Shown piece by piece: positions 46,480 to 61,944 of a stretch of 64,000 bases of DNA. The DNA is from Copromyces sp. CBS 386.78. Its lineage: Eukaryota; Ascomycota; Sordariomycetes; Sordariales; Sordariaceae. The stretch is taken from the NCBI GenBank assembly GCA_030685235.1, contig MU839151.1, positions 124,001-188,000 on the forward strand, in the 5' to 3' direction. Numbering within the stretch: the first letter of the stretch is position 1; each line of letters begins with the position of its first letter. The notes beneath the pieces were generated by a model. The model was given only the letters and a program-made list of their open reading frames with translations, did no database searches and was not told where the DNA came from. A program made the position numbers and the translations under genes.

Positions 46480-46720
46480 ATTCGTTGTTGATCAGGATCC
46501 GGTAACCCAAAAAAAAGACGGAAAACAAGAGGATGAGAGTCTGAGAGAAACCGTTCACCGTCACCCTCTCCCGACTTTCGCGAAAACAGGCGGGACAAAG
46601 CGAGCTTTTAACAGGATCCAACAGGACCCACGCCGCCGCCAACCACGCTAGCGGCCAGCATCAGCCCTACCTCCTATGGAGCGTCCACGGTCCCCACTGT
46701 AGCGAAGCCAGGAATAGAAT
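46480..46720 (-). promoter_or_regulatory. Short promoter of the subtilase gene, cut by the retrotransposon
   Basis: Only 241 bp lie between the protease ATG and the copia insertion (target duplication AGAAT at 46716-46720). No TATA box seen. Confidence 0.4.
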
Positions 46721-46886
46721 TGTGATAATATGGGTCTGAAAGTAGGGGGTTCAACGTGGCTGTATTGTGTGTTCTCTGTTGTGCTGATCCGCACTTGGTT
46801 CGATATTTGGCATCTGGTATAAATCCCGTACTAATTTGCTCCTCAATCCCGTGACTATATACGTACATATCCCCTACCGTCTGATA
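46721..46886 (-). repeat. 3' LTR of the copia element
   Basis: 166 bp, TGTGATAATATGGG... to ...CCGTCTGATA on the plus strand, i.e. TA...CA in element sense (TG turned to TA by RIP). A purine-rich AAGGGGGT abuts it on the minus strand at 46887-46896, the likely polypurine tract. Confidence 0.93.
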
Positions 46887-47199
46887 TACCCCCTTAGATC
46901 TAGCGTACAAACCGTACTAGATCTACTTAGAAATGCCTTAAAATCCTTCTAGAATTGGCTAAAAATAATACTATTCCTAAATATAATCCCCAATTATTTC
47001 CTTTTATTACGGTAGCTTTCAAGCTATTATTCGTAAGAGCTATTAATAAATATACTCGCCGTTTTATTATTTATATCCTCCTTACTAGAGTCTTCTATAC
47101 CCTTAGGGCGCCCTATAATAATATTTCCGTTATTAAATTCCTACAATTGAATTAGTAGCCGCTATAACTCTATAAATCCTAATTATTCTAATAAAGTTA

Positions 47200-48150
47200 G
47201 ATAAATTGCGGGAGGGAGGTTCTTTATAAGCCCGTTAACGATCTATTCTTTAATCGGTACGTATATTATATTAATTAATTTCTTCTTTTATATTTACTTT
47301 AGCTAATATTTATATACGTTTACGTATTTAAACTTCGTAACGAGCTATATTCCCTTCTTTACGATAAAGCGGATTGTTTATTTATTATTGTACCCTATAG
47401 GAATCCCTTCCTAATTTGGGAAATTTAGCGTAAGTTCGTTAAATAGGCGGCGGGCGTAAATCGCCTCCTTAGTACTTTAATTTAAAGATAGTAGTTTAGC
47501 CTTTATTAATAAAGTTATAATAGTATTTTATTTATTAGTACGCTAGTCGATAGTGCCGCTTAGTAATTATATTACGAACGCTTATAAATTCTTACGATTA
47601 AAAGAGTTATTTATAAATAAAGAGTTAATTATAACGTAGAAGTCATAATAATCTTTATTATTTAATTAAAGGGCGAAATCTTGAATTATAAAAAAATAGA
47701 AGATTACTTAATTTATTATTATATAATAAATAAAATTAAAGTTAAAATTAAACCGAGCGAGTTTAAAGATTAGGAAGGCGACGTTTAGTTGCGATATAAT
47801 GGCGATATAGAGGATAGAGCCGATTTTTACTTAGTACGCGATAATTTCATATAGTATAGCGCTATTTTAATAGGGGAATAATTCCTCTTTAGTTATTAGG
47901 GTTGTATATAATTTTTTAATTCGTTTTACCTTATTAGTAATTTTCTAAATATATTTATATTAAGAGAGCTAGATTAACCTTTTTTCGTAGTCTCGAATAA
48001 CTTCGATACCTAGGAACTATTTTAATAGATCTCCGCTGGTTAATTAATATTTCTTCTCTATAGTAGTTATTACCCCTTTAATAATAGTAATCTCTTAATC
48101 CCTATACTTATAAATAATAATAATATCGTTAATATAAAAGAATAAAAAAA
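47200..48150 (-). pseudogene. Relic of copia pol: reverse transcriptase then RNase H
   Basis: Minus-strand reading gives FYINDIIIIYK (equivalent of the YxDD active-site strand, with the first Asp changed to Asn), IIKGVITTIEKKY, then stop codons where Gln and Trp are expected, and FLGIEVIRDYEKRL. Further on, fragments resembling the RNase H region (NNKQSALS, GLIKNL) occur around 47570-47200. Stops and frame damage make it non-functional. Confidence 0.8.
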
Positions 48151-51100
48151 TATTATTTTTAACGAAGATATTAAATTCTATAGGGAGAAGATTTATATTT
48201 ATAGTAATTAAGGTTCTAGTAAATTCTTGCTACTAGAAGAGAGGAAATTTCCGTAAACTATATAATATTTGTAATAACTGGAATACTTAGCCTTTCCTTA
48301 TATAATTAGAGGGAGGTTTTATATATATTAATTTATTAAATAATATATTTATAAACGCATTTTTTATATTATATTAAATTAAATCGAAGTTAAAATAGGC
48401 CGCTATCGCTATTAGGATATAAAATAATCTAATTATTAGAATCGTTATATACATTTTTCGTACGCTATTTTTAAGTTGCTAATTTCTACGTATAATTAAA
48501 CGTACTTTATACTTAAGGAAACGGCCGTCTTAATCGAATTTATAGATATATATCTATATTAAACCGAATATTTCGTTATTTCTAAATTCTTCGGCGCTAA
48601 CCTACTTCTAAGATTTAAAATCCTTATATTTATTTAAGTATTCCTTCTCTACTTCTTTAAAGAATTTTCTAAAAGAATAAAAGTTAAATTATCTATAATT
48701 ATTAGGAAGGGGTAGAAAGTTAGATTAATAGAGGGTTTTTAATATACCTTTTACTTTATAGCGATATACAAATTCCCTCGTTATCTTCAATTTAAAGTTA
48801 TAGCCGGGGTCGATTTCGATTCTACTCTTTCTTATTTCTTTTAAAAAGGTTTAATCTATAACCTTATTTCCCTAAATACTTATTAATCTATTCCTCCGTA
48901 CAGATATAAAGGATACGGCCTATATAAAGTACTAATTTATAATTAATTATAAATCTTTATTAAATTAAAAGAAGTCGGTTACTAGGAATACGGCTAGGCT
49001 TTTAGGAAGGGTTAGTAAATACCCTTCTTCCTTATTTTTTAAATTTAAAACTATATTTTAGAAATTTAACGACCTTTATACTAGTAATATTAATAAGGGT
49101 TCTTCTAAAGACCTTTATAGATTTTCTAAACCCGTTTACGGATTTCATATCCTAAATTCCTCTTCTTCCTTTAATATATTCGATTCGTTTAAAAAGCCTT
49201 AGGTAATAGGGCTAAGAATTCCCTCTTTAATAGTACTAAATTAGAAGAAATCTACTTATATAATATTTATTTAATAGAAATTTTTTAATTATATAGTTAA
49301 TTTTTTAAGGGAAATATTAAGGGTATTATAGATTTCTTTAATATTACTAAAGAATACTTTATTTTCGTTAAATATAACGTTTTATATAATAATAATAGTA
49401 TTCGTATATAAGTTCTAGATTCGGTAAATATTAATTGATTAATACCCTACTAAATACCTAATCTATATACGGTCTTTAAATTTTATAATTTTATTTTACT
49501 CCTTTATTACCTCTATAAAGAGGGTAAAAACTTTATAACTATAAATTTTAAAGTATATAATAGTTGGGGACGGATTTATTAATAGAACGATACTATTTTT
49601 AAATTAATAAAATATTTTAAATCTCTCCTTAGAGGATTTCTAATAATATTTAATTTTAAGAGTTAGGTTATATAAATACGTAGTTGCTTTAGTAATTTTT
49701 AGCTATAATTTATAAGGTAAATTCGTACCTGAATGTATTATTACCGCCTTAATTTTAATTATACCCCTTAAGCGTTTTATACCGCCGTTTTAAATTTGTG
49801 TATAAAGCGCTAAGGGTTTAATACTAATTCTTTTATTAGAAAACTAAATAGTAATCTTCTTACTATTCGTTATTTCATTATTATATTCGACGATACGAAG
49901 TATTATCTAGTATTTCGTTTATAAATTTATAAATAAAAATTCTAAATAGGCAATAATAGAATCCGCTTTTCGGTTATTTAAATAATATACTTAAATAAAC
50001 TTAAACTATCGATTTATAATTATTATTAAATTCGAATATTCTATATTACCGAATTTTATTTTTTTATATAAAAAGAAGTCGATAGCGAAATATAACCCGG
50101 GTCCTTCGAAGTAATCCCGAGCCTCCCTACGTACTTAACGCTTCAATTTGGCCTTTATATATAAATTGTAATAAATTAGATCTAGTCCCTTCAACCGAAC
50201 GCTATATACTTATTTAATAAATTTAGTAAAGGTATTAGGGCTAGGGTAATTAAATCGAAGATGCTAGCGGAAAGGATCTCCTTTTCGGGGCTTCTATTTA
50301 GAATAGTTAGAATATTATATAGTAAAAGAGGACTTATTAAGGCTATTATTCTATAAGGGAATATACTTTAATATAAATTAATTATAATAAAAGTAGATAT
50401 TATAAATTAGGGAGTTTATAAGGCTAGAATATAAATAACTATTTTTATAATCTTAGAAGATCTACTCCTCCTCGAATTTTTTTAAAGAAACGAAATTGTA
50501 AACTATATTTAATATTAATATAATATTAATAAAATATAAATTACAACCTCCTTTATCGTTTTAGACTATTAATATAATACTACTATATCCTTCAATAAAT
50601 ATACGTTTATTCCTAGCCTATATATAGTTATTAGGGTTTATAGAATTTAAATTATCGAATTAACTAACTTTATTAAAAATATAGATTATTATACCTAAAT
50701 CGAAGATCGTTAAATTTCTTAGTAGGTATATAGTACTATAGTAATCTATAGTAAGTACTAAGAAACTATTTTTACTAATTTAATAATTGAATTAATTTTT
50801 ATTATTTTTATTCGTTTATTTAAAGCGGTTAACGGCCTTTTTAAAGTATTTATCCTTTTTTAAATTCATTTCTACTTATTTCCGGATAATAGGGGATTCG
50901 ATTTAACTATTAAAAATTATTTATAGCTTTATATAATAGTATTATTCTAATTTATAGTTATAAAACTTATAGAATTTGTATAGGAATCGAGGTTTCTTTA
51001 ACGAGGGTAGGGACGAAGAGGAAATAAAAGCGCACTTATTTTTATTAATATTCTTTTTAGGAGCGGATTTCCTACTAATTATCTTTATAATCTTTCTCCG

Positions 51101-52077
51101 TCCTTCTACCCCCGGGCTAAATTATTTATCGTTATTAAGAACATCTTCCTTAGTAGGCTTATTACTTAATATAACCGCGAATATTATACTTTTAAACGGG
51201 GGGGCATAACCTTTTCTTTAAATAGCGTTCGCTATTACTATTTTACAAAAGTCCTTAATTATAATTTAGAAGGAGATTTAAAAATTAGGATCTTCCTCGA
51301 TCTTCTTATTATATTAAAATTAATAAATTTCTGCCTAATTATTATAGAGAGAAAATCTAATTATATTATAAAATTTTAAAAATTAAAAGTCGTCTTCGTT
51401 AGCGTTAGGGATTTACCGGGCAATATAGAGGGCTATAGCCAATTCCTACTAGAAAATTTAATTAAATTAATTATAGTTTCTTTTCGCAGAGGGTTTAAAA
51501 AAGTTAAAAAGGGTAGCCCTAATAAATTTTTTAGCTTTATAATTATTAAAGGAAATAGATTTAGAGAAGTTATTATACTATTTATATAACTTAATATATT
51601 AAATAAAGTTAGTCTTACAATATTAATTTCTAATAATTTCGGTTATCTATCGATTTAATATAATCTTTTTAATACCTAAGTCCGAAAGGGCCTTAATTTT
51701 AATACGCCAATCCTATTTTTCGGTTATATAGTTATAATAATTATATTTATAAAAGAAGCCGTAAATCCGCGCCACGTTAGAAAGTTTTCGTTCCCGGGTT
51801 CTACATTCGGCGGGAGTCTCCCCCTTAGGGGGTATACCCTAGTAATTAACAATATTAGGTTTTTCGGGGTTAATAAACTAGGGCACGCAGTTCGCTAGAT
51901 CGATATACTTCTAAAAGCCGAAATTTTAAACCTAGGAAATAAAAGCATCTTCCTACGCGGGCTAATTTTTAAGTACATTGAGTATAATATTATTATTGGA
52001 TTTAGTCGTAGAAAATATTATTATTTCAGTTTTCTAATTATTGAATTGCTAGCGATAATTTTAAACGATTGAATTAA

Positions 52078-52090
52078 TGAGACTCTTAAT
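52078..52090 (-). other. Primer-binding site complementary to tRNA-Lys(CUU) anticodon arm
   Basis: Directly next to the 5' LTR the plus strand reads TGAGACTCTTAAT, identical to nucleotides 27-39 of the tRNA-Lys gene at 61768-61840. In element sense the site is thus the complement of that tRNA segment, with the primer 3' end against the LTR. The match lies in the anticodon arm and not at the tRNA 3' end, which implies a half-tRNA primer. Confidence 0.75.
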
Positions 52091-52256
52091 TGTAATAATA
52101 TAGGTCTGAAAGTAGGGGGTTCAACGTGGCTATATTGTGTGTTCTCTGTTGTGCTGATCCGCACCTGGCTCGATATCTGGCATTTGGTATAAATCCCGCA
52201 CTGATCTGCTCCTCAATCCCGTGACTGTGTACGTGCATATCCCCTGCCGTCTGATA
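52091..52256 (-). repeat. 5' LTR of the copia element
   Basis: 166 bp, same length as the left copy and less mutated: at most differing sites it keeps C or G where the left LTR has T or A. Confidence 0.93.
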
Positions 52257-53586
52257 AGAATTCGCACTTTGCCTGTTGGGCCCGTAACGATGTGTGCTGG
52301 GATTGGGATGTGCCTGCCGGGCCCCTGGCCAGCAGCGTTGCAATAACCCAATCCTTCAATCACACAGCCCGAAAAGCCCAAAACAGGCTCAAACCGCCAT
52401 TCGCAAAACCAGCAGCCAAATGGCAATAGACACTTCTCTCCCGCAGGCTGCAGCATAAAAACAAACGGGGGGGTTGCGACAGCATTTTTCTGGGCGTAAT
52501 CGGCTTGGCAGTTGGAACAACTGCGGCCAGGCGGCGTGGAGGGGATAGCGCGCTTGTTGTTGGGTATGTACCGGCATCATCTCCATGGGTCTTTGAACCG
52601 AAAGCGAATGCCATCTCGCGACTCCCTAGCTTGCCCGTATTGCAAAGAGCCTCATCAGTTATCGAGAGTGAGAGATGGCCATCACTCGTTCTGGATGTCT
52701 TGAAACTGGATACTGAATGGAGTCACCATATTGTCGTCGGCGGATAAATCGGATGTAACGAAGTGGGCTTGAAGGGCTCCAAAGTGGGCGGTGTCGTGAA
52801 TCCGGATCCAGATCCCGGTGGTGCCTCCACTGAACTCAGTGGGCTTGGACGCTGGGCGTTGCTGGCATTGTCGTGTCTTGGCGGTCTTCAGCCTCTGCCG
52901 TAACAGGCGATAGCTTTTGAGTTGACAAGGAACGGAGAAAAAGCCGGGCATGAAAGTGGAAATGCTGACTGCCTCTGTCTCTGTGTGTTTCCCAAACTTC
53001 CCGATCCTCGCTGACAGTTCTGAAAAGAAGTGATGGGACTGGTCAGGATACTGGGGCAGCGAAATTAAGGGGATGGAGCAGATCTCGTCAGCAAACAAAA
53101 CAGTTTGGAAGAAATCAAGTGTTACGCGAGCTGTGGCTTGGGCGAACAGAGAAGATAATGGGTAAGTTGACAGGTAGAGAAGCTGTAGGCGCGGCTGTGC
53201 CACGTTTGGTGATCGATGGGCGAATCTGGTTGAGCGCAAAGGCTCCTACAAGAATCTTAGCCTATACCAGCATAAATCAGCTCAGGTTGTCCAATATTAT
53301 GTAGAGAGAAACCGACCAGGCAAGTGTCCAGGGCAAGAACGAGTCCCATGAAGAATCGAGACAGCCTCGAGGTGTTGGTGCTTCCTGCCGTCTACCGCCA
53401 ACGCAAGAAGGAACGGAAACACCGCCAAGCCCCTTCAACTCTCATCTTCCCTTACAGCAAGCTTCATATCCCATCGTTAAAGTTCACATAAGTTCACATG
53501 TGAAACGCGAGACGATTAGTAAGCACATCACCCTGATCAATCTACCACCGCATGTCCTGGTGGTTTGCTCCTCCAGAAAGCTACCC
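52257..53586. other. Region between the retrotransposon and the G-patch gene, no supported gene
   Basis: Base composition returns to normal. A minus-strand frame at 52682-53239 (185 codons) and smaller ones show no domain or splice evidence. Carries the 3' flank of the G-patch gene on the right. Confidence 0.45.
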
Positions 53587-57132: not shown

Positions 57133-58665
57133 TTAAGTTGTCATCTCTGCGCCCCTTTCCTGCACCACCAAAGGAGGCTCTTTGGCTTCTTGTGCAATTT
57201 GACCGATACCACCGTCTCCATGAGTCCTCGAATCATCTCCAGCATCTGAGTCGTAATATATTGCCGGCCCTTCCTCGTCGCCCGATGCGCTGGGAGTGAC
57301 GCCTTCAGTGTGATCCGACGCCGTCGACCAGGTACTTCCGCCGCTCTCGCCCGAATAAGGAAAAGCCTCCGATGGAATGATGTGCCGCTGGATGATGCCC
57401 TCCCATGTCTCTTCTTCCGTGGGAGATGGTGGGATGACCTCTGCTGTGCCGTCATCGTGCTCCTCCAACCCCGCGTACTCGGTCGGCAGAGAAAGATGCA
57501 CGTCTGGGATGGCCAACTCGGATTCGCTGTGTGAGCTTGGGCTGTGCGCAATAGGCGTCTCGTCTTTGGCCATTTCCACGCTCTCCCAGTCCAGCGACTC
57601 GGTTGGCGAACTTGAAGCAGTTGGAGATGGTACCACTTGAGGCTGCCGTACTTTGGCCCAGTGCTGGACCACGCTCTTGACCTGGTCGGCAAAGCTGATG
57701 AACTGCGTTCCAAACGTGTCCCGCGTCAGGCTGGTGTCAATGGGTATGCTGACAGTCTGACAGTATCCGCTGGTCGTCAACAGCTTACTCGCGAAAAGCT
57801 CTGGGAACTCTTCCTCGGCAATGTCAATGGCATCGGTCCACCGCACCTGCTCGCCCAAGATGAAACTCTGACCTCCAAGGATGTAGGGACTTAGGGCCTC
57901 GACATGGACCCGTGCCACGTCTTCGACATGCACCGACACTCCCGCGTATACCCCCAGGCCGTGGCCTAGGAGTAGGGCTGCCAACATGGAGTTTGTGCCC
58001 TTCATCGCCTGCCTTTCCGTGGTCGCTGCCGTGTTGGCCCCCAGCACGAAGCCCGGGTGTATGTACACGGCGTCAAAGAATGGCCGCTCGTGCGCCATGT
58101 ACTCCTCCGCCACTTGAAGTGCTCGACATTTGGAGGCTGCGTAGGCGGCAAATTCGGATGCGTATGGTCCTTGATCAACGGGTATCCGGTCTTCGGGAAC
58201 CACAGGCTGTTCTCTCTTCTCTTTGCCCTCCATTTGTGATATTGGGACAATGGCCGCAATGGAACTTGTGAAGACAACACGTCTTACCGTCCCGCTTTGC
58301 TCGGCGGCGTCAAGAATGTTGAGCGTTCCGGCTTCGGCAGGCTTGATGAATGTCTCTCGGGCGTCGTCTGTACCGATCCAGCGACCAGCTTTGCTTGGTA
58401 GAGGAGATGCTGTGTGGATGATGTAGCCGACATCTTCCGCGGCCGTCACAAATGCCCCTGGTTTCGTAATGTCTGGCACGACGATAAAGGAGAGTTTCGA
58501 AGGATTGAGGCGGCGTAGTGCGGGTCGGGCTCGGATTGTGTGTTCGTCCTCTGCTTTTCGGACAGCGCACCGAACATGATATCCCTGACGGAGTAGGCAC
58601 TGAAGAATGGCCCAGCCAAGGTGGCCTGTGGCACCAGTCAAGAGCACTATGTCTCCGGGTGCCAT
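57133..58665 (-). CDS. NAD-dependent epimerase/reductase (dihydroflavonol-4-reductase-like) with long tail
   Basis: Single-exon protein of 510 residues. Residues 1-335 form an extended short-chain dehydrogenase: the Rossmann motif VLLTGATGHLG, YHVRCAVRKAEDE, VVPDITKPGAFVTAAEDVGY, IHTASPLPSK, GTLNILDAAEQSGTVRRVVF followed by TSSIAAI, and the active-site YAASK (Tyr-x-x-x-Lys). VYIHPGFVLGANT and VHVEDVARVHVEAL are typical of the cinnamoyl-CoA/dihydroflavonol reductase group, which reduces aldehydes or ketones with NADPH. The last 170 residues are an unusual Pro/Ser/Thr/Glu-rich acidic tail (PSPTEEETWEGIIQRH, ASGDEEGPAIYYDSD) not found in the standard family length of about 340. Substrate unknown. 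Confidence 0.9.
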   Translation of the reverse strand: MAPGDIVLLTGATGHLGWAILQCLLRQGYHVRCAVRKAEDEHTIRARPALRRLNPSKLSFIVVPDITKPGAFVTAAEDVGYIIHTASPLPSKAGRWIGTDDARETFIKPAEAGTLNILDAAEQSGTVRRVVFTSSIAAIVPISQMEGKEKREQPVVPEDRIPVDQGPYASEFAAYAASKCRALQVAEEYMAHERPFFDAVYIHPGFVLGANTAATTERQAMKGTNSMLAALLLGHGLGVYAGVSVHVEDVARVHVEALSPYILGGQSFILGEQVRWTDAIDIAEEEFPELFASKLLTTSGYCQTVSIPIDTSLTRDTFGTQFISFADQVKSVVQHWAKVRQPQVVPSPTASSSPTESLDWESVEMAKDETPIAHSPSSHSESELAIPDVHLSLPTEYAGLEEHDDGTAEVIPPSPTEEETWEGIIQRHIIPSEAFPYSGESGGSTWSTASDHTEGVTPSASGDEEGPAIYYDSDAGDDSRTHGDGGIGQIAQEAKEPPLVVQERGAEMTT

Positions 58666-61767: not shown

Positions 61768-61840
61768 GCCCGGCTAGCTCAATCGGTAGAGCGTGAGACT
61801 CTTAATCTCAAGGTTGTGGGTTCGACCCCCACGTCGGGCT
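61768..61840 (+). tRNA. tRNA-Lys (anticodon CTT), no intron
   Basis: Acceptor arms GCCCGGC/GTCGGGC, D arm GCTC/GAGC, anticodon stem TGAGA/TCTCA, loop CTCTTAA with anticodon CTT, T arm GTGGG/CCCAC around TTCGACC. Decodes AAG. The T-rich terminator starts at 61867. Nucleotides 27-39 are those matched by the copia primer-binding site at 52078-52090. Confidence 0.95.
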
Positions 61841-61944
61841 CAATTCCCGATGTTCAACAACATCTTCTTTTTTTTAAAAATTTCTGCCCCCGAGCCACCG
61901 TTTTCTTTTTGCTTTGCTTTTGACAATGTTCGTCTTTCTTCTTT

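Follow-up and report, generated by a model that had tools for sequence, protein, structure and literature searches.

Drosophila copia is reportedly primed by a 39-nt fragment of initiator tRNA-Met. Copia and yeast Ty5 resemble the retrotransposon family described here (family A) in belonging to the Copia superfamily and in priming from the anticodon loop of a tRNA, but are said to use an initiator methionine tRNA, unlike the lysine and asparagine tRNAs implicated below. Among fungal Copia elements, FunCo1 carries a PBS (ATTAAGAGTCT) complementary to an internal region of a D. melanogaster tRNA-Lys gene (Donnart et al. 2017, PMC5445492); it is widespread in Pezizomycotina, including the Sordariales genome Chaetomium globosum, and together with GalEa made up 80% of the copia sequences that a screen of 30 genomes uncovered (PMC5445492). 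The parallel with the anticodon-loop priming of copia and Ty5 has been stated by Kojima (2024, PMC10886601), where fungal Helenus TRIMs and Puccinia hordei Copia families are described with 5-bp TSDs and with PBSs to the anticodon loops of Tyr, Ile, Asp and iMet tRNAs and, in one Helenus lineage, of Asn-GTT; these examples come from rust fungi, and Lys is absent among the fungal primers named in section 3.6 of that paper. According to Neumann et al. (2019, PMC6317226), PBSs for half-molecule tRNAs are confined in plants to Ty1/copia; they occur in the lineages Osser, Bryco, Gymco-II and Bianca, which use a tRNA severed within the anticodon stem, 1/2 tRNA-Met or 1/2 tRNA-Ile, unlike Lys and Asn here.

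Family A, represented by one copy in the window (the whole 64-kb stretch of Copromyces DNA analysed), has the same PBS as FunCo1, its ATTAAGAGTCTCA matching the published ATTAAGAGTCT exactly. Judged by this PBS, family A would belong to the FunCo1 clade, which is itself defined by a reverse transcriptase tree (bootstrap >70). The passages of PMC5445492 that deal with the FunCo1 site term it a 'classical PBS', and discuss neither a cleaved tRNA nor nucleotides 39 and 27. An earlier note on this DNA had presented the element as extending cleaved-tRNA priming to a fungal copia; with both the PBS (PMC5445492) and the principle (PMC10886601) in print, that claim to novelty was not upheld and is mostly gone, the mechanism not being new and family A serving as an extra example. 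A shared register of nucleotides 39 and 27 for Lys and Asn tRNAs in one genome was not found in searches of the openly licensed PMC literature. The genome offers an unusually clean case of probable half-tRNA priming, with several families, two tRNAs and one register side by side, and the 2017 remark on the tRNA-Lys-internal PBS of FunCo1 becomes a concrete prediction, namely a cut after nucleotide 39 and copying as far as nucleotide 27.

Structure and classification of the window element

The window holds a minus-strand copia-type element of 5.5 kb (family A; 46721-52256) delimited by an LTR pair, a target site duplication and an RVT_2 domain; the copy is complete, RIP-mutated and dead, and descends from live ancestors. 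Its LTRs, each of 166 bp and on the minus strand, lie at 52091-52256 (5' LTR, ending ...TTACA, or CACA in less mutated copies) and 46721-46886 (3' LTR), and are flanked by the unstranded target site duplication AGAAT at 46716-46720 on the 3' LTR side and at 52257-52261 on the 5' LTR side. A probable polypurine tract, AAGGGGGTA, read from the sequence at 46887-46895 (minus strand), adjoins the 3' LTR, and a remnant of a copia-type reverse transcriptase (RVT_2, 47924-48556, minus strand; E 8e-17, 13 internal stops) is located 3.5 kb downstream of the PBS, corresponding to C73:171924-172556:- with a window offset of 124000. The two LTRs differ at 14 positions, and the differences are all transitions (14/14), as RIP would give. 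A longer LTR repeat of 169 bp, taking in three bases of the PBS, was rejected, as the AGAAT duplications place those bases in the target site duplication or the PBS; the same duplications fix the LTRs at the coordinates given, and the PBS therefore directly abuts the LTR.

Further complete LTR pairs of family A have 5-nt duplications (3/3) and the CACA end (3/3), with the LTR starting TGTC in two and TATC, as also in the window, in one. The RVT_2 domain and the TG..CA-type LTRs with a 5-bp target duplication are features of Ty1/copia (Pseudoviridae), and the location of the reverse transcriptase near the 3' LTR fits Ty1/copia gene order. A genome search with the integrase profile rve returned six matches, none of them in family A (0/6), and when ten stop-free pieces from the window copy were scanned against Pfam, none matched a copia domain and the one match obtained was weak and unrelated. 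Family A is a copia-superfamily retrotransposon, present in the window as a dead RIP-mutated copy, and the earlier description of a RIP-degraded copia with its site at the LTR edge was borne out by the 166-bp LTRs, AGAAT, RVT_2 and zero gap.

The 13-base site and its tRNA

The sequence TGAGACTCTTAAT occurs at 52078-52090, beside the 5' LTR, and at 61794-61806, with no third copy on either strand within the 64-kb window. The second occurrence forms nucleotides 27-39 of a tRNA-Lys(CUU) gene (61768-61841, plus strand; one of 18 copies sharing 73 bases), and the PBS read in element sense, ATTAAGAGTCTCA (52078-52090, minus strand; LTR gap 0), is the complement of those nucleotides, confirming the exact copy in primer orientation that had been reported for the 13 bases abutting the 5' LTR. 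Across the 49.8-Mb assembly the exact 13-mer was found 24 times, compared with once for a reversed control; by context these comprise 18 identical tRNA-Lys(CUU) genes, one broken tRNA-Lys-like copy, three family-A copies, one short LTR element, and one place without a recognised tRNA or LTR. Because the 18 identical genes are dispersed, the 9.7-kb distance between element and tRNA gene, which the earlier note had mentioned, is without meaning. The broken copy (L017, ~1501) is a tRNA-Lys-like gene interrupted by several short insertions, with the anticodon arm intact and no tRNA called by ARAGORN. The tRNA sample came from an RF00005 search giving at least 63 genes (63 of 2375 candidates from the first pass scored), 30 of which were read, so that the genome's tRNA set is represented incompletely.

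A chance resemblance between an AT-rich, RIP-mutated junction and a tRNA has to be considered, RIP reducing sequence complexity and the 13-mer being AT-rich; however, such a complement is expected at one given position with a probability of only ~1.5e-5 to 4e-5 (on a guessed total of 45 tRNA species), the junction is the sole 13-mer complement in the 5.2-kb internal region (tested against nine tRNA sequences, several near-identical), the same PBS has been published for a fungal element (PMC5445492), and other families in this genome match Lys or Asn tRNAs in the identical register (see below), leaving coincidence with a negligible likelihood.

Conservation within family A

A search of the genome with the window junction gave at least 43 matches (40 of 83 candidates scored), of which 38 span the junction and all 38 were read; family A thus has at least 38 junction-bearing copies. 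The sister copies keep the 13-mer beside the LTR, as half-tRNA priming had led the earlier note to anticipate, in 38/38 junctions found, RIP-type changes aside: three are exact, and 15, 17 and three have one, two and three differences, respectively. These differences are only G>A or C>T and fall at PBS positions 6, 8, 10 and 12, positions 1-5, 7, 9, 11 and 13 being invariant; the script used to read the junctions is blind to changes other than G>A and C>T, yet it recognised all 38 junctions supplied. The flank at positions 14-30 is equally conserved, with transitions only, in the 36 copies long enough to be compared, so that within-family conservation alone says little about function and the weight falls on the match across families and tRNAs.

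The same junctions bear on where in the tRNA the primer would end. Conventional priming from a tRNA 3' end, its PBS blurred by RIP, is the usual arrangement for LTR elements, and TGG can become TAA or TAG through RIP; yet the TGG needed for a 3'-end primer is absent from the first 30 nt in every family-A copy long enough to judge (0/36), no better match to a tRNA 3' end was found in the sister copies, and all 38 junctions begin ATTAA, with an LTR gap of 0 in 37/38 and one extra A in the remaining copy (L129), making this explanation very unlikely. Priming without a tRNA-directed PBS, either by self-priming, reported for Tf1 and suggested for certain plant copia elements (PMC6317226), or through a conserved hairpin such as the site that replaces the PBS in fungal GalEa (PMC5445492), is just as improbable, since the longest LTR complement to the first 20 internal nucleotides is 4 nt, a length reached by 500/500 shuffles, and the junction differs from the GalEa palindrome CTGATCAGT/CTAATTAGT (PMC5445492). 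Membership of GalEa (FunCo8), a group with no PBS and with the palindromic CHSeq1, was likewise rejected for family A, where the junction reads ATTAAGAGTCTCA in 38/38 copies up to RIP-type changes.

Which lysine tRNA would be used turns largely on PBS position 6. An A at this position, seen in 14/38 copies, pairs with U34 of tRNA-Lys(UUU), and a G would wobble with it; G is nevertheless the base in 24/38 copies and, as RIP produces only G>A, is the older state, and no tRNA gene with TGAGACTTTTAAT was found, its five exact sites being three family copies and two places without a tRNA. tRNA-Lys(UUU) is therefore an unlikely primer, if less remote than the explanations above, and tRNA-Lys(CUU) is the preferred candidate.

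The site and the tRNA in other families

A wider search, using LTR-CA followed by the first 11 bases of the Lys-type PBS with one mismatch allowed, returned 103 sites against 49 for a reversed control, so that about half of them are expected by chance. Contexts were read for 22 loci outside family A, picked by their likeness to a junction. Six belong to a second copia family with a different LTR (family B), whose PBS is ATTAAGAGTCTTA or differs from it by C>T, with a run of complementarity to tRNA-Lys of 11 nt in four loci and 9 nt in two; 15 have an Asn-type PBS, ATTAACAGTCTGA or C>T variants; and the last, L020, is of the Lys type and matches at 13/13. Sprinzl positions 27-39 of the host tRNA-Asn(GUU), which are linear positions 28-40 because of an extra base in the D-loop, read TCAGACTGTTAAT and complement ATTAACAGTCTGA exactly; the Asn-type loci match this stretch at 13/13 in eight cases, over an 11-nt run in three, and with a C>T at position 6 in four. 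Of three patterns used for tRNA-Asn genes, two matched nothing and the third gave 12 sites, from which one gene was read.

The two PBS types share one frame, with the primer end at 39 and the last match at 27, and first differ at PBS position 6, which corresponds to tRNA position 34 (C in Lys, G in Asn); PBS position 12 (tRNA position 28) likewise differs between the types and tracks the tRNAs. The earlier note had suggested looking for covariation with the tRNA, and the PBS does change where the Lys and Asn tRNAs differ, at 34 and 28, in the same frame; 11 of the 13 bases were preselected for Lys-likeness by the search pattern, which left free only PBS positions 12-13 and, at position 6, the Asn base. 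Of the evidence assembled here, this match of different families to the Lys and Asn tRNAs speaks most strongly for priming at the anticodon arm.

An association with copia reverse transcriptases was also found, in that 16/105 RVT_2 domains lie 3.48-4.19 kb downstream, on the correct strand, of one of 84 sites, compared with a chance expectation of ~0.4; the comparison covered 105 of the 106 listed domains and 84 of the 100 listed places (103 in all), with 16 one-mismatch places bearing other changes left out. Seven of the 16 linked domains are in family A, and those with contexts read include family B (C59, C93) and Asn-type loci (C6, C8:517544). One RVT_2 domain, on C41, has two competing sites, both resembling short elements.

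A probable half-tRNA primer and its possible border

The features of the half-tRNA-primed class are present in these elements, namely a PBS to the anticodon arm, a primer whose 3' end is predicted to fall within the anticodon stem, and no TGG. With a probability of roughly 0.83, the live ancestors of family A started minus-strand DNA synthesis from a 5' half of tRNA-Lys(CUU) cut after nucleotide 39. The cut would fall in the anticodon stem rather than the loop, and the 13-nt PBS would base-pair with nucleotides 27-39 of the cut tRNA-Lys(CUU), whose newly made 3' end would be extended into U5, priming the minus strand. The half-tRNA-Lys(CUU) proposal of the earlier note, with its 3' end at nucleotide 39, accordingly stands as the best reading of the anatomy, from which cleavage and priming are inferred.

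The other border of the site may have a modification as its cause. G26, which in eukaryotes usually carries m2,2G, is present in both tRNA-Lys(CUU) and tRNA-Asn(GUU), just beyond the end of the PBS at 27. The base opposite it is T, not C, in 36/36 family-A copies and in 21/22 outside loci, the exception (L107) having A. Retroviruses owe the border of their 18-nt PBS to m1A58, at which plus-strand synthesis on the tRNA stops (PMC13191261). By analogy, a single primer rule might apply across families, with the primer ending at 39, the PBS extending to 27, and the border arising from a stop or misreading by the reverse transcriptase at m2,2G26; this reading is tentative and rather doubtful, and would take in the two copia families (Lys), the RT-linked elements (Asn) and the short TRIM-like elements (either tRNA). 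If this holds, a tRNA modification would be recorded in the 13-nt half-tRNA PBS, and many families of elements would draw on a single cut by a host nuclease.

Short elements and other observations

Three TRIM-like elements of ~370-380 bp were observed at C25:386270-386710 (L103), C54:142870-143290 (L104) and C70:210510-210930 (L105), with LTRs of ~90 bp (TGTCAG..CTGACA), a PBS complementing tRNA-Asn(GUU) nucleotides 27-39 (in L105 with one RIP-type change), and an internal part in which a tRNA B-box-like GTTCGA stretch follows shortly after the PBS. The short element of L020 (L020:1408-1832, C57) has LTRs of ~94 bp, a PBS exact for tRNA-Lys(CUU) nucleotides 27-39, and a T-arm-like stretch in its interior, GGTCCCAGGTTCAATTCCCGGCC; an adjacent copy of the other TRIM LTR was seen.

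A complement of the tRNA-Lys D-arm (CCGATT..) was seen 10-12 nt past the PBS in L139, L140, L144 and L020, covering two Lys-type families, and is weak. Such a D-arm box, considered as additional support for a 5' half primer, was set aside as weak, tRNA-Arg sharing the motif and equalling Lys on family B. Shuffle scores against Lys were 3/500 for L020 and, in four copies of family B, 11/500, 1/500, 71/500 and 4/500, with no box in family A (L003 130/500, L001 44/500 shuffles); the best D-arm score of L001 was against the non-cognate Asn (0/500). Scores against Asn were 38 and 119 of 500 for two family-C copies, and 17, 344 and 469 of 500 for L104, L103 and L138, respectively.

Most listed copia RT domains in the genome contain stops; stop-free domains are found at C105:74767-75489, C2:357444-358169 and C28:18685-19380, with long open frames of 1145-1367 aa. 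The protein encoded by a neighbouring gene in the window, at 57133-58665, is 96% identical to a Pseudoneurospora amorphoporcata protein, and its identity to the named proteins from Neurospora and Sordaria is 77-84%, indicating that the host is closely related to Neurospora.
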